Virus record (IMG/VR): IMGVR_UViG_3300045051_000139
Location: 1 to 47,438 of that record
DNA from: a virus
Length of the DNA: 47,438 nucleotides
Direction: 5' to 3' (one strand)
Part shown: positions 3,529-17,435 of the stretch, piece after piece
How the letters are laid out: the number at the start of each line of letters is the position of its first letter
How positions within the stretch are numbered: the first letter of the stretch is position 1
Notes under the pieces: generated by a model
What the model was told of the DNA's origin: nothing
The model's database searches: none
Seen by the model: only the letters and a program-made list of their open reading frames with translations
Made by a program: the position numbers and the translations under genes

Positions 3529-3725
3529 CAGTTTTGCTCCGGCTTGATCATCTTGCGTTCTTGCAACATGGCATCGGCAACTCGATAGGATTCGATGGCG
3601 ATGTAATTAAGCTGGGCGTTAGTCTCATCCTCCCTTTTCTCTTCTGCGTAGCTGACCGGGCTCGTGATCAAAAGCGACTGCATCGCAGCCATGGCGAAGC
3701 GGTCACGCAATTCAACTATGTTCAT
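3528..3725 (-). CDS. small phage protein, first gene of the leftward unit
   Basis: A 65-residue acidic/helical protein (MNIVELRDRFAMAAMQSLL at the start). Similar short proteins occur beside repressors and primases in many phages, without a firm function. The ATG at 3725 is preceded by GAGGTAAGAG, so I reject a longer form starting at 3773. It overlaps the Cro-like start by one base. Confidence 0.7.
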   Translation of the reverse strand: MNIVELRDRFAMAAMQSLLITSPVSYAEEKREDETNAQLNYIAIESYRVADAMLQERKMIKPEQN

Positions 3726-3753
3726 TTCTCTTACCTCGTTTTGGAATGGCGCC

Positions 3754-3783
3754 ATCCTACAACACTTGCTCAAGCGCCTGCAA
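3754..3783 (-). promoter_or_regulatory. putative leftward early promoter
   Basis: On the minus strand TTGCAG and TAGGAT are spaced 18 bases apart, upstream of the leftward operon. The spacer contains CAAGTGTTGTA, which resembles the half-sites found in the rightward promoters but with different spacing. This is a weaker match than the rightward set. Confidence 0.4.
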
Positions 3784-3856
3784 GCTTGTATAAAGTTGCG
3801 ACCTAGCCCAAGGTGCGCCCGGAGGATTCGCTCGTCCTACCGTCCGTCGGATCCAC

Positions 3857-3885
3857 TAGATAATACAAGTAACCGCTTGTATATT
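3857..3885 (+). promoter_or_regulatory. early promoter P1 with operator in the spacer
   Basis: TAGATA and TATATT are 17 bases apart. The spacer carries the inverted repeat TACAAG-N6-CTTGTA (3864-3881), which overlaps the -10 box. The same arrangement recurs at four other places in the rightward block. P1 would drive the gene at 3966 with a leader of about 75 bases. Confidence 0.7.
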
Positions 3886-3965
3886 GAAATTACCGCACAG
3901 ACACGATAACGACGGTGATGTACAGCACGGACGCTACCCAACCTAATCACTTGAGGTAGCCCAAA

Positions 3966-12902: not shown

Positions 12903-13387
12903 CCGGAATAAGACTGGTAGAAGCACGGTGGGGCGTCGAATTCTGGAAACTGGTATCTGATTTCGCCGAGCAGGGGCTATCCCGTTTCGATACGGCTAGG
13001 GCATTAGGGTATTCCCCCCAAGGTTTCTGCCACCTGCTCTCTCGCACACCCTCTAAAGATCCCTTCGATCCCTCCTCGCGCTCACTGGCGTACCTGAAAG
13101 ATACCGGGGAGAACTTTCGCCAAGCCTTGGAGCGCATGTCCCTTGAACAACGCAGCTGGGCCTACGCTGCCCGCGCGATTGGGTACAGCGACGGGCACAC
13201 CTTGAAAAAGGCCGCACGGCACCGAGGCATAACCGTGGAGATGAATTCCAAACACCCTGGGCGCCCCCGGCTGCATCCAGTTCCCGAAAAACGCAGTGAC
13301 TTAACGCTCAACTGGCCGAACTGGTCTGAGGTGTACGCCATGGGCGGCCTCCCAGTTCCTGAGAAATGGAAAAGGAAAAAGGCATGA
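12899..13387 (+). CDS. helix-turn-helix-like DNA-binding protein
   Basis: A 162-residue basic protein with two helix-turn-helix-like segments: SRFDTARALGYSPQGFCHLL (about 27-47) and AARAIGYSDGHTLKKAARHRG (about 85-105). A Pro/Arg-rich linker follows, then a tail with Trp residues (NWPNWSEVYAMGG). It lies directly upstream of the polymerase and overlaps its start, so it may act at the origin or as a transcription regulator. The family is not recognised beyond this. Confidence 0.72.
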   Translation: MTGIRLVEARWGVEFWKLVSDFAEQGLSRFDTARALGYSPQGFCHLLSRTPSKDPFDPSSRSLAYLKDTGENFRQALERMSLEQRSWAYAARAIGYSDGHTLKKAARHRGITVEMNSKHPGRPRLHPVPEKRSDLTLNWPNWSEVYAMGGLPVPEKWKRKKA

Positions 13388-14457
13388 ACCTCGATAAATG
13401 CATTTTCCTCGACACAGAAACATTCTGCGAAACGCCCATCAACAACGGGACGCATCGTTATGCAGAAGGCGCCGAGATCATCATGTGGCAGTGGGCGGTC
13501 GGCGAAGGCGAAGTGATTATTCGTGATGGGGATGAAGACGTTTCGGATCTAATGGAACTACTGACCGATCCGTCTTACGAGAAGGTGATCCAGAACAGTG
13601 CGTTCGACCGTACCGTAATGACTCACGCGATAGGCTTCACGATTCCGGTAGAAGAGACGTTCGATACGATGGTGTGCGCTATGGCTCACTCGTTACCAGG
13701 CGCTTTGGAAAAGTTGGGGGATATCCTCGGGATCGCGAAGGACAAGGCGAAGGACAAGGCGGGTAAAGCGTTGATCCAGTTGTTCTGCAAGCCCCGGCCC
13801 AAGAACCAGATCCTCCGGCGCGCTACTCGCGAAACGCATCCCGTCGAGTGGGAAGCCTTTCGCGAGTACGGGCGTCTCGACATCGAAGCTATGCGTGAGA
13901 TCTACAAAAAGCTGCCGCGGTGGAATTACCGGGGGTTCGAGCGCGACCTGTGGTGTTTAGACCAGAAGATTAACGAGCGAGGAGTAATGCTCGACATCGA
14001 CCTGGCCCACGCGGCTATCCGTGCCAGTGAGAGAGCGCAGAAGCAGTTAGCGAAGCAGGCTCACGATATGACATCCGGCGCTGTGACCAGCGCCAACCAG
14101 CGTGATCGAATGCTTGAACATATCCTCGAAGAGTATGGCATTGCACTCGCCGATTTGAAGGGCTCGACAATCGAAAAGACCCTGGCCGACGTGGACATGC
14201 CTTTCGAACTAAAAGAACTCCTGATGGTGCGCGTGGAGGCTTCTCGCACGAGCGTATCGAAGTACAAGCGGGTTATCTCAGGATCTAGCAGCGACGGACG
14301 TATGCGCGGCACGGCGGCCTTCTGTGGCGCCCTCCGAACTGGAAGGTGGGCGGGTCGGCTTCTGCAGCTGCAAAACTGCCCCCGTCCTACGATCAAAAAT
14401 AAAGAGATCGATCTATGGATCGAAGCCCTTAAAGCGGATGCGGAAGACCTAGTATGA
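13384..14457 (+). CDS. DNA polymerase A, N-terminal part (3-5 exonuclease and thumb)
   Basis: This 357-residue part carries the DnaQ-type exonuclease: Exo I FLDTETF (about residue 9), Exo II with NSAFD, and Exo III YGRLDIEAM. It continues into the polymerase thumb and the palm entry (AFCGALRTGRWAGRLLQLQNCPRP). In related phage polymerases the sequence runs on without a break. Here it stops at TGA inside an ATGA, and the next frame, shifted by -1, begins at the same bases. I choose the ATG at 13384, which overlaps the previous stop, over one at 13366. The fragment is either a separate subunit or the front half of a frameshifted gene. Confidence 0.85.
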   Translation: MNLDKCIFLDTETFCETPINNGTHRYAEGAEIIMWQWAVGEGEVIIRDGDEDVSDLMELLTDPSYEKVIQNSAFDRTVMTHAIGFTIPVEETFDTMVCAMAHSLPGALEKLGDILGIAKDKAKDKAGKALIQLFCKPRPKNQILRRATRETHPVEWEAFREYGRLDIEAMREIYKKLPRWNYRGFERDLWCLDQKINERGVMLDIDLAHAAIRASERAQKQLAKQAHDMTSGAVTSANQRDRMLEHILEEYGIALADLKGSTIEKTLADVDMPFELKELLMVRVEASRTSVSKYKRVISGSSSDGRMRGTAAFCGALRTGRWAGRLLQLQNCPRPTIKNKEIDLWIEALKADAEDLV

Positions 14458-16265
14458 CAACGGTGATGGAAGCGTGCAGCAGCGCGGTTCGCGGCCTTAT
14501 AACCGCGCCCCCTAAAAAGAAATTGGTTATAGCAGATTTGTCAAATATTGAGGGCCGTGTACTCGCATGGCTGGCCGGTGAAGAATGGAAGCTTCAGGCG
14601 TTTCGTGAATATGACACGCAGATGGGTCTAGACGGGCGCTGGTACATCGGAGACGAGCTGCGATCGGCTGTCCTAGCCGGTACGCCGATTCCTGTCGAGC
14701 TGAACGCCAAGGGCGATCCGGTAACGCTCGGCTCCGACCTCTACAAGCTCGCCTATGCGAAAGCTTTCGGCGTAAAAGTGGAAGACGTGGACGGTATGAT
14801 GCGCCAGATCGGCAAGACCATGGAACTGGCTTGCCTGGGCGGCGATACCCTTGTACTGACGAAGGAGAAAGGATACATTGCCATTCGGGATGTAACTACA
14901 GACGTTCAGTTATGGGATGGTGAAGAATGGGTGCAGCATCAGGGGCTCTTGGCTCGCGGTGTTCGGCAGGTTGTGAATGTTTCAGGCATTCAGGTAACGC
15001 CGGATCATTTGATCAAAACCGGGACAACCTGGAAGCCGGCAGGGCTACTCGCTACAAACGAAAGCATCCTCTGCCAAGCATTGGAGACAGGTTCGAAGAG
15101 CTTACCGTGGTCGGACACAACATCGGTCCATCGGGAGGCCCGTCAGCCCTGGTTACCGTCCAGTGCTCCTGCGGCGCTGAGCCCCATGCCGTTTATGACT
15201 ACAATTTGCGCAACGGTAAATCGACTCGTTGCAATGCTTGCGCAAAGATCAAAGCAGGCCACTGGCGGAAAAACTTTTGGGCCTACGCCGACATCGTTCC
15301 TTCCGATGACCATCGACGGCGTTTGCTCAACAGAATTTCAGCCTGCCTCAACCGGTGCCACAATCCAAAAGATGCCAACTTCAAGAACTACGGCGCCCGC
15401 GGTATCCAAGTGTTCGAACCGTGGCGCACTGACCGTCGTGCCTTCTTGGCTTACCTCGTCACCCTTAAAGATTGGGATAAAGCGGCTTATGAGATCGACC
15501 GCGAAGATGTTGACCGCGGTTACGAGCCGGGCAACCTCAGGTTCATTACCAGAACCCAAAACGCCGGTAATCGACGAAAAGTCAGCACTATGCAAGCCAC
15601 CATCTTGCGACTCGAATCTGAGAATCGAGACCTACGACATCGCCTTAAGCGGGCCGAGGAACTGCTTCTCGATTCTCTCTGAACACGGGCCATTGATCGC
15701 CCACAATTGCGGCTACGCCGGCGGTGTAGGTGCCTTTATTACCTTCTCGCTGGCGTTCAACATCGACTTGGAAGCAATGGCCGAGAAGGCGGTTAGCACG
15801 ATTCCGAAGACCACCCTTGACGAAGCCTCTAGCTTTCTCGAATGGCAGCTAGGCCAGGGGAAGAGTCAATATGGGTTGAGCGATCAAGCGTTCATCGTCT
15901 GTGATAGCTTCAAGCGCCTGTGGCGCGAGGCGCACCCTAACGTGGCGAGCTACTGGAAAGAGCTGGAGAACGCCTGTAGGAACGCGATTAACAACCCCGG
16001 ACAGACGTTGACTTGCCGTATGCACAAAGTCCGTCGCGACGGCGCTTGGCTTCGAGTGATGTTGCCTAGCGGTCGATACCTTTGCTATCCGTCGCCGCGC
16101 GTAGAGGACGATGGGCAAATTACGTTCATGGGTATCAACCAATATTCCCGAAAATGGGAGAGATTGCGCACATATTCTGGGAAATTGGCGGAAAACACTA
16201 CACAAGCAGTTGCAAGGGATGTACTTGCGCACTCAATGCCGAGGATCGAAACATGGCGCCCATAG
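14454..16265 (+). CDS. DNA polymerase A, central palm/fingers part, containing an intein
   Basis: This 603-residue frame carries polymerase motif A (ADLSNIEGR, about residue 27). Motif B is interrupted by an intein: the flanks GKTMELA and [10 protein letters not shown] join into the usual phage motif. After removal of the 292-residue intein about 311 residues remain. The frame ends at TAG after [11 protein letters not shown], before motif C, which lies in the next frame. A GGAAG upstream of the ATG at the junction with the N-terminal part allows separate initiation. Splicing and assembly with the other two parts would be required for activity, unless the breaks are sequencing errors or frameshift sites. 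Confidence 0.85.
14832..15707 (+). mobile_element. intein in DNA polymerase motif B, with an out-of-frame endonuclease
   Basis: The intein begins with Cys (block [11 protein letters not shown]) and has block [10 protein letters not shown] with the conserved His. It ends with block F ([16 protein letters not shown]) and block G (LIAHN) before Cys+1. The 292 residues would excise to join ELA to CGYAGG. In the polymerase frame the middle part (about 15080-15620) is Ser/Thr/Pro-rich and shows no endonuclease motif, while the -1 frame there encodes an HNH-like nuclease. Splice residues are intact (C1, TxxH, terminal His-Asn, C+1), so the intein is probably active. The insertion site is a highly conserved polymerase motif, as usual for inteins. 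Confidence 0.88.
14927..15682 (+). CDS. HNH-like homing endonuclease nested out of frame in the intein
   Basis: In the -1 frame the segment [12 protein letters not shown], with CSCG and CNAC, matches the zinc-finger-like front domain of many phage homing nucleases. The core follows: [23 protein letters not shown], then [21 protein letters not shown] and QNAGNRRK, a well-known phage endonuclease pattern. A Leu-rich coiled tail ([21 protein letters not shown]) ends at a TGA and overlaps intein block F. Only sequence from about 15075 looks protein-like; the first 50 residues may be untranslated or junk. The ATG at 14927 has only a weak GGTGAAG. A -1 frameshift from the intein N-part is an alternative start mechanism. 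Confidence 0.75.
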   Translation: MGAASGALGSRCSAGCECFRHSGNAGSFDQNRDNLEAGRATRYKRKHPLPSIGDRFEELTVVGHNIGPSGGPSALVTVQCSCGAEPHAVYDYNLRNGKSTRCNACAKIKAGHWRKNFWAYADIVPSDDHRRRLLNRISACLNRCHNPKDANFKNYGARGIQVFEPWRTDRRAFLAYLVTLKDWDKAAYEIDREDVDRGYEPGNLRFITRTQNAGNRRKVSTMQATILRLESENRDLRHRLKRAEELLLDSL

Positions 16266-16447
16266 AGTTTGAATCCGGCCTGGAGATCGTCGTAACCGTA
16301 CACGACGAAGTGATCTGCGAAGCACCCGATGATCCCGCTTTCTCCCATTCCATCCTGTCAGCCCTCATGGCCCAAGGCGAAGACTGGACAGAAGGCTTAC
16401 CGCTCGCCGCCGCCGGCTTCGAAGCGTATCGCTACCGGAAAGGTTGA
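16253..16447 (+). CDS. DNA polymerase A, C-terminal part with motif C
   Basis: This 64-residue frame begins with [21 protein letters not shown]. The VHDE is motif C, with the second catalytic carboxylate of family A polymerases, and the rest is the standard C-terminal helix. In relatives it is continuous with the palm. Here it is in the -1 frame relative to the preceding part. An ATG with GAGG eight bases upstream permits independent translation, and it overlaps the TAG of the middle part. If not an error, the enzyme would consist of three chains. Confidence 0.7.
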
Positions 16448-16472
16448 CTACAAGTCGAATCTTGCATAAGCT
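16444..16472 (+). promoter_or_regulatory. promoter P6 with operator, upstream of the methyltransferase
   Basis: TTGACT and TAAGCT are 17 bases apart, starting at the end of the polymerase gene. The spacer holds TACAAG-TCGAAT-CTTGCA (16449-16466), the fifth operator-like palindrome of the rightward block. It sits about three bases further from the -10 box than in P1-P3. Confidence 0.6.
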
Positions 16473-16498
16473 TGCGTACAAATAGAGGAGAGCAAGCT

Positions 16499-17398
16499 TT
16501 GACCGCTTACTACAACGAATTTGACCCGTACGCAGCACAATGGCTGCGCAACCTTATTGCCGCCGGGCATATCGCGCCCGGTGTTGTTGACGAACGGAGT
16601 ATTGAAGATGTCACACCTGCAGACCTCGTCGGATTCACCCAGTGCCATTTCTTCGCCGGCGTCGGCGTGTGGGGCCTCGCCCTGCGAAACGCAGGATGGC
16701 CCGACGACCGACCAGTGTGGACCGGCTCCTGTCCTTGCCAGCCTTTCAGCGCGGCAGGCGCTGGAGCTGGGTTTAAGGACCCAAGACACCTTTGGCCAAG
16801 TTTTGCCTGGCTCATCGGACAGTCTAAACCTCCAGTCATCTTTGGAGAGCAGGTTGCGAGCAAGGCTGTCGAACCTTGGGTCGACCTTGTACATGCTGAC
16901 GTGGAAGCCCTGGGTTACGCCTTCGGGGCCATCCCGTTTCCGTCTGCGGGCGTCGGTGCGCCGCACATCCGAGACCGGATTTACTGGGTGGCCGACTCCG
17001 ACGGCGAGCGACAGCCGGGGACTTCCGGGCACCAAGCCGGATGGATCAATGAAGCGGGAACTGACCGATATAGCCACCCTGGCCGGATGGCCAACACCCA
17101 GGGCGGCAGACGGAGAGAAGAACGTCAGGACGCTGGAGGGGAGTCTTTCGGAGATAGCGAGAAAGGGTGGCCCGCAGGATCTGAGCATGGCTGCGGCGAT
17201 CTGCCCACCGGCCTGGTTAACGGCCGGTGGGCAGATGCTGACTGGCTCAGCTGCCGGGATGGAAAGTGGCGGCCAGTTGAACCCGGCACATTCCCGCTGG
17301 CTAATGGGGCTACCTCAAGAGTGGGACGACTGCGCGCCTACGGAAACGCTATCAACGCTGAAGCGGCGCACGAATTTATCGCAGCGTACTTGGCGTAA
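16499..17398 (+). CDS. DNA cytosine-5 methyltransferase (Dcm-like)
   Basis: A 299-residue C5 methyltransferase. Motif I is FFAGVGVWG (SAM binding), motif [10 protein letters not shown] holds the catalytic Cys, motif VI is FGEQV, motif VIII is HIRDRIYW, and motif X is RAYGNAI near the C-terminus. All catalytic motifs are intact. A TTG start after AGAGGAG is chosen because a longer frame would begin upstream of the predicted transcript start. It probably modifies phage DNA against host restriction. Most of the gene is also read in another frame by a second recognised protein. Confidence 0.88.
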
Positions 17399-17435
17399 GA
17401 TTGCCGACGAATACCTGTATGGCGACCTCGTTTAA
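16608..17435 (+). CDS. overlapping alternative-frame gene within the methyltransferase gene
   Basis: In the +1 frame a 275-residue protein starts at an ATG with ACGGAG at good spacing. It contains stretches I recognise from many phage proteins: [57 protein letters not shown] and [22 protein letters not shown]. Proteins with this layout are usually annotated hypothetical or methyltransferase-associated. It is unusual because 791 bases serve two frames. Its role is unknown. The Trp-Pro-rich composition suggests it is not a copy of the enzyme fold. Confidence 0.7.

Follow-up and report, generated by a model that had tools for sequence, protein, structure and literature searches.

In the usual picture, the nuclease of an intein is a domain of the intein protein itself. 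A stretch of 47,438 bases from an IMG/VR virus record (the window, by which we mean that whole stretch) appeared to be organized differently, as a first-pass annotation had placed the splicing domains of an intein in the frame of a DNA polymerase and an HNH nuclease in the -1 frame of the same bases. The locus raises the question of whether both frames are in use, or whether an ordinary in-frame nuclease has been displaced, and, if both are used, how the nuclease is made. We computed the layout and its conservation, purifying selection in the nuclease frame, avoidance of host-frame stops, selection on the start codon, the occupied or empty state of sites, and nuclease-deleted derivatives. The element is very probably a mini-intein carrying an independently initiated, overprinted HNH homing-endonuclease gene in the -1 frame, where splicing and homing are inferred from known inteins and HNH enzymes.

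A Splicing Domain in the Polymerase Frame

The open reading frame of the family A DNA polymerase (14454-16265) runs straight across the insert at 14832-15707, the features of which are collected in Table 1. The insert begins with Cys1 (14832-14834), ends with His-Asn (15702-15707) and is followed by a +1 Cys at 15708, and the insertion point lies within the highly conserved polymerase motif GKxxELxxGYGG. When the insert is removed, the joined exteins are 55% identical to the intein-free polymerase of Bordetella phage BIP-1. An AlphaFold model of the host-frame product has both splicing parts folded and the middle disordered, and the top matches to this model in Foldseek are solved mini-inteins, with a probability of 1.00. 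A profile search of the same product against solved inteins also returned a match, weak in sequence terms (E about 0.005). The nucleophile, terminal Asn and +1 residue, block B with the fold, and an in-frame insertion with intein-free homologues together place the element among Hint-fold inteins, and from its sequence and model it is predicted to be a splicing mini-intein with a two-part Hint domain (Cys1/His-Asn/+1 Cys). An RNA intron was considered and ruled out, as the host frame is open and carries a full Hint domain.

Table 1. Features of the intein-containing polymerase locus in the window
Feature	Position	Strand	Evidence
N-extein, family A DNA polymerase upstream of the intein	14454..14831	+	PF00476, partial match
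Intein, 292 aa, polymerase frame	14832..15707	+	C1, terminal H-N, +1 Cys; intein fold
N-terminal splicing part, residues 1-90, with block B 'VTPDH' inside	14832..15101	+	pLDDT ~98; dN/dS 0-0.3 ahead of the nuclease start
Likely nuclease start, in intein motif WDGEEWV (14913-14933)	14927..14929	+	ATG in 71/96 contexts vs 34.6 expected
HNH endonuclease ORF, -1 frame, 251 aa	14927..15682	+	phrog_374 E 2e-32; dN/dS 0.10 vs L002; model pLDDT 85.7
N-side overlap of splicing part and nuclease ORF	14927..15101	+	dN/dS intermediate in both frames in most pairs; nuclease residues 1-48 disordered
Intein middle, polymerase frame: open, disordered, Ser/Thr/Pro-rich	15102..15617	+	mean pLDDT ~39-56 per 10-residue block; dN/dS close to 1 or higher
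C-terminal splicing part, residues 263-292, blocks F and G	15618..15707	+	pLDDT 93-98; dN/dS 0-0.2
C-side overlap of block F with the C-terminal helix and stop of the nuclease	15618..15682	+	ORF positions, dN/dS, models
C-extein, polymerase continuation	15708..16265	+	phrog_7766 E 1e-38; joined-extein identity to BIP-1

An HNH Nuclease in the -1 Frame

The -1 product is assigned to the HNH enzymes on the basis of PHROG profiles (a second family, phrog_3377, is matched at E 2e-19) and of alignment to annotated phage HNH proteins. These bear out the assignment made from the letters alone; the Pfam search of the nuclease family gave no HNH match. Foldseek of the nuclease model against the PDB found no significant fold match, and the profile search of the nuclease against the PDB returned chance matches only. 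The model itself is mostly above 90 in pLDDT from about residue 50, while residues 1-48, in the stretch that overlaps block B, are modelled as poorly ordered.

The nuclease ends with a TGA at 15680-15682, inside block F, which bears out the overlap that had been proposed. The larger overlap on the N-side had been missed, as the nuclease begins at 14927 and runs through block B. In the relatives described below, the nuclease stop lies mostly 1-70 bases ahead of the intein end and is often a TAA built from the His-Asn codons.

Recurrence of the Layout

Relatives were sought by tblastn in named phages, by scans of viral and genome contigs, and then by profile searches. The same offset between polymerase and HNH was found by tblastn in EBPR siphovirus 2, Jersey-like Salmonella phages, Escherichia phages, Vibrio phage 97.13 and Pseudomonas phage MR14. 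The contig scans and profile searches gave 70 loci with an intein and an HNH nuclease, the window copy included, and 55 remained after removal of copies with at least 95% nucleotide identity. The nuclease is out of frame in every one of the 55 (51 in -1, 4 in +1). Both splicing parts lie in one open reading frame in all 55, which was also a condition for keeping a locus; among all loci with an intein N-part and an HNH nuclease, the frame is broken in a single contig, 638275545 (L044/L099), by two single-base differences from close relatives. C1, the terminal HN and a +1 Cys or Ser are present in 55/55 loci, and T56 and H59 of the block B TxxH motif are invariant.

A second survey avoided choice by nuclease and used the intein N-domain alone as query; the best 80 of 550 stretches encoding relatives were taken. 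They comprise, after dereplication, 67 inteins, 62 of them large and 5 of them mini-inteins. Within this best 80 of 550, the nuclease lies in -1 in 62/62 large inteins and in frame in none, and its open reading frame is intact in 61 of the 62. A nuclease in frame with the splicing domain was thus encountered neither among the 55 loci nor among the 62 large inteins from the best 80 of 550.

These counts bear directly on the possibility that an in-frame intein nuclease was displaced here by compensating indels or sequencing errors. The polymerase of the window is itself split over frames elsewhere, and one public contig does carry single-base indels in this region; both speak for such a displacement. 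Independent isolates and metagenomes nevertheless keep the same offset in 55 dereplicated loci, no large intein in the best 80 of 550 has an in-frame nuclease, and the host frame avoids stops (see below), so that we regard displacement as already refuted by conservation and give it a negligible chance. Compensating indels and homologous inteins with an in-frame nuclease, two of the three findings that would have spoken against the first reading of the locus, were both looked for and neither was seen in the 55 loci or among the 62 large inteins (best 80 of 550), and conservation of the layout in many independent genomes answers the worry of an artefact at this one.

The +1 arrangement occurs in polymerase inteins from Clostridiales, Spirochaetaceae, Allobaculum and a Streptococcus prophage, namely in L107, L109, L111, L117 and Streptococcus phage Javan104 (L226). 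These members have a related intein N-domain at the same polymerase site and carry the HNH nuclease in the other alternative frame. In a tree of the HNH proteins, a supported block unites 47 of the 49 -1 rows, and the +1 rows group in another; the two remaining -1 rows (L052 and L059) stand outside the main block on long branches, and long branches limit how firmly the number of origins can be read.

The existing records describe these loci differently. That of Salmonella phage Ent1 gives its polymerase intein as 'encoding splicing domains' and notes a helicase intein with a LAGLIDADG nuclease; the HNH nuclease within the polymerase intein is overlooked. Among the matches listed that fall in these polymerases, none has the HNH nuclease as a separate annotated gene. 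A partial intein match in Escherichia phage mckay was set aside as an over-extended alignment, the polymerase CDS there being only 2292 nt. Two side observations concern other arrangements. One polymerase (L100:1052-4776) has apparently two inteins, the first of them apparently split across ORFs, and two bacterial genomes each have an ORF with a weak HNH match (L132:3465-4079 and L136:3426-4058) that overlaps a very large ORF in another frame and may represent a further case of overlap.

Selection on the Two Frames

An open host frame across the nuclease could in principle be a chance product of the nuclease codons. For the window alone, the host frame stays open in 2.7% of trials when these codons are shuffled synonymously. 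Over the nuclease cores of the 55 dereplicated loci, the same shuffling predicts 165 host-frame stops and none is seen, whereas the third frame has 613 against 610 expected. The equivalent frame of 39 free-standing HNH control genes contains 217 stops against about 216 expected; a fortieth control (L039), a nested copy at a contig end, has no stops and was set aside. In the N-domain survey (best 80 of 550), the 9,935 codons contain no host-frame stop, against 700 stops in the third frame.

The protein-level signal differs along the element. In the nuclease core, pairwise dN/dS read in the HNH frame is as given in Table 1 for the window and L002 and 0.03-0.17 within the Jersey group, so that the purifying selection expected of a real -1 gene is present. 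Read in the host frame, the same bases give 1.82 (window against L002) and mostly 0.6-1.3 (Jersey group); one close pair reaches 6.6, a value that depends on a single synonymous change. The splicing parts behave in the opposite manner, with the low host-frame values listed for each of them, and over the N-side overlap most values are intermediate in both frames. From the frame-by-frame dN/dS and the stop avoidance, it follows that conservation at the protein level covers the nuclease and the splice blocks, and that the middle of the intein is kept open and no more. Selection is found in both frames, and across the core it takes, in the host frame, the form of stop avoidance only. The suggestion that both frames are meaningful therefore holds for the two overlaps and fails over the core, where the host frame is open but hardly conserved as protein. 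The Ser/Thr/Pro-rich middle, which had been taken for an out-of-frame translation, has the low pLDDT and high dN/dS of one, and in the polymerase frame it is not a functional domain. Conserved layout, stop avoidance and dN/dS together support the early interpretation of a homing gene within a mini-intein with both frames open.

It might be argued that the host-frame insert is tolerated unspliced, as has been proposed for the ShiLan element, and out-of-frame HNH insertions without splicing domains do exist (PMC11855218). We consider this highly unlikely here. All splicing residues are invariant in the 55 loci, the ends of the insert in the host frame fold as an intein and are under purifying selection, and 280-300 unspliced residues within the conserved GKxxELxxGYGG motif would very probably be harmful.

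Initiation of the Nuclease

The codons GAA-TGG of the motif WDGxEWV hold an ATG in the -1 frame, and in the window a GGTGA-like ribosome-binding stretch lies just 5' of it. The motif was recognized in 49 -1 loci, and the codon at this position is ATG in 38 of them, GTG in 9 and TTG in 2. The 34.6 contexts expected to have the wobble A that makes the ATG, out of the 96 distinct ones in Table 1, were calculated from each host gene's own codon usage. A second ATG two codons downstream is present in seven members that start with GTG or TTG and in two that start with ATG, mostly behind a stretch resembling GGGGAGGA. The ribosome-binding signal is only slightly above expectation (-0.45 +/- 0.19 kcal/mol). 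As judged from the sequences, this excess of ATG favours an internal start under selection over a frameshift.

If ribosomes were instead programmed to slip into -1 from the intein N-domain, the product would be an N-extein-IntN-HNH fusion and no separately initiated protein. In favour of this, 51 of the 55 loci have the nuclease in -1, the direction in which programmed frameshifts are commonest, and its open reading frame extends into the N-part of the intein. The enrichment of the internal ATG (71 against 34.6) is hard to reconcile with such a mechanism. In addition, a stop one codon before the ATG closes the -1 frame in the window and in several relatives, the related element uses the +1 frame, and no slippery heptamer was seen by eye near the start in the window. 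Frameshifting is on this evidence unlikely.

With an independently initiated nuclease, the locus can be pictured as follows, drawing on established knowledge of inteins and HNH enzymes for the splicing, internal initiation, DNA cleavage and homing. The polymerase message would be read straight through the insert, and in the precursor the two terminal splicing parts would fold together, leaving between them a disordered loop of ~165 residues, which is nuclease DNA translated out of frame. The intein would then excise itself and join the polymerase halves. Ribosomes would also start at the ATG within WDGxEWV to give a separate HNH protein of ~250 aa, and this protein would cut intein-free polymerase genes, leading to homing of the whole element.

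Probable Mobility and Persistence of the Element

Occupied and empty alleles of one site occur within a single genus. The polymerase CDS of Salmonella phage Ent1 is 3099 nt with an intein of 897 nt, and that of SETP13, of the same genus and without the intein, is 2202 nt; the difference is exactly the 897 nt of the intein, and the exteins are about 90% identical. Insertions are found at several neighbouring polymerase sites (ELA|C, GKV|C, GKVA|C and EN|C) and, in one case, in a second host gene, a phage helicase (L051:2422-4971). At several polymerase sites and in this helicase the nuclease is always in -1. Its presence is therefore patchy and site-specific: both an occupied and an empty allele exist within one genus, and the element is found at several sites and in two host genes. 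The five mini-inteins of the N-domain survey (best 80 of 550; L177, L192, L196, L211 and L212) are 135-146 aa long and have lost the nuclease core. Three of them retain the nuclease ends in -1, and the other two have an unrecognizable -1 frame with several stops; from their sequences they look like deletion products. The empty site, the several sites and the nuclease-less derivatives together suggest the pattern of a homing cycle.

The intact nuclease ORF in 61 of 62 large inteins (best 80 of 550) is above what would be expected for a purely selfish homing cycle, and might indicate that the nuclease is now put to use, for instance to exclude rival phages, and that homing is no longer its main role. 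The patchy presence and exact same-genus empty site, the several sites, the second host gene and the nuclease-less derivatives all fit homing, and the overlap with an essential gene can by itself explain the scarcity of broken copies. We therefore view a service role as quite unlikely, and retain the homing enzyme as the preferred reading.

An indel in an in-frame or a separate nuclease gene would hurt the nuclease only, while here it would also shift the polymerase frame, and therefore the commonest form of gene decay should be purged. This purging is a candidate reason for the 61 of 62 intact nuclease ORFs (best 80 of 550). More broadly, and with a little less than even confidence, we propose that these are members of a widespread class of 'entangled' inteins, of more than one origin, whose homing gene invariably lies out of frame and whose overlap with the essential polymerase purges frameshifts, shielding the nuclease from the decay with which a homing cycle normally closes.

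Surroundings of the Intein in the Window

The polymerase of the window is encoded by three overlapping ORFs, namely 13366-14457 (the exonuclease part), 14454-16265 (the polymerase part with the intein) and 16253-16447 (the final 64 residues, which include the HDEV motif). L002 is divided in the same way, its 64-aa piece being 97% identical, and on sequence grounds the split therefore looks like genuine gene fission or a restart and not like an error. Because of the split, polymerase function is less certain in the window phage than in relatives with an unbroken polymerase ORF.

Downstream, two ORFs of ~300 aa (16472-17398 and 16521-17435) occupy the same DNA in different frames and match two PHROG families of DNA methyltransferases (phrog_363, E 1e-86; phrog_1008, E 3e-37). 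A comparable overlapping pair in Escherichia phage K1G is annotated as a C-specific methylase and an Mte8-like protein, and L002 is without the pair.

Comparison with Known Systems

The layout is present in many sequenced and easily grown Salmonella and E. coli phages, the records of which show a polymerase or a splicing-domain intein only. This suggests that inteins listed as nuclease-free deserve to be rechecked in all frames, and the layout offers a natural test of whether gene overlap stabilizes a selfish gene.

Fractured genes with split inteins, reportedly described by Dassa et al. in 2009, have a free-standing nuclease gene between the intein halves. The present element is similar in that its nuclease is a separate gene between the two halves of an intein, but in fractured genes the host gene is broken into two ORFs, whereas here the host ORF is unbroken in every dereplicated relative.

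The closest published precedent found is the ShiLan domain, with the insertion of Pacc40 gp60, in which an HNH enzyme is encoded out of frame within mycobacteriophage methylase genes (Arsenault, Gosselin, Gogarten 2025, PMC11855218). The first-pass annotation knew of no described case of this exact layout; out-of-frame HNH insertions in phage genes have thus been published, but without an intein. A preprint from the same group on non-canonical phage inteins in actinobacteriophages, to which PMC11855218 refers for overlapping frames, might overlap with the present findings. In the ShiLan element as in the present one, a phage gene carries an insert across which the host frame stays open and an HNH enzyme is encoded out of frame, and our own check of the ShiLan sequence places its nuclease at the -1 offset as well. 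The ShiLan nuclease ends with a TAA in the last four bases of the element, as do many members here. The ShiLan element has no splicing domain and is thought to be unspliced (PMC11855218), whereas the host frame here encodes full intein splicing parts. A profile comparison of the ShiLan -1 ORF with this nuclease gave no significant match (E 0.38, score about 1), and homology of the two nucleases is accordingly unsupported. A -1 HNH ORF in a helicase-methylase gene without intein motifs (L076:2452-5760, HNH at 3693-3944) resembles the Pacc40/ShiLan type.

Group I introns of phage DNA polymerase genes are also reported to encode HNH enzymes, such as I-PfoP3I (PMC3428280). They are alike in being mobile elements that reside in the polymerase gene of a phage and whose HNH enzyme is translated separately; they are removed at the RNA level, whereas here the host frame is open and encodes a protein-splicing domain.

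With canonical large inteins, which contain an in-frame LAGLIDADG or HNH nuclease, the element shares the combination of a splicing domain and a homing nuclease in one mobile unit. In those inteins, exemplified by the Ent1 helicase intein with its LAGLIDADG enzyme, the nuclease forms one domain of the intein protein. The nuclease of the present element is instead a gene of its own, overprinted in another frame, and the middle of the intein in the host frame is a disordered filler. A single locus would in this way yield a polymerase, an excised intein and a free nuclease, with an essential gene, a splicing domain and a selfish gene sharing the same bases.
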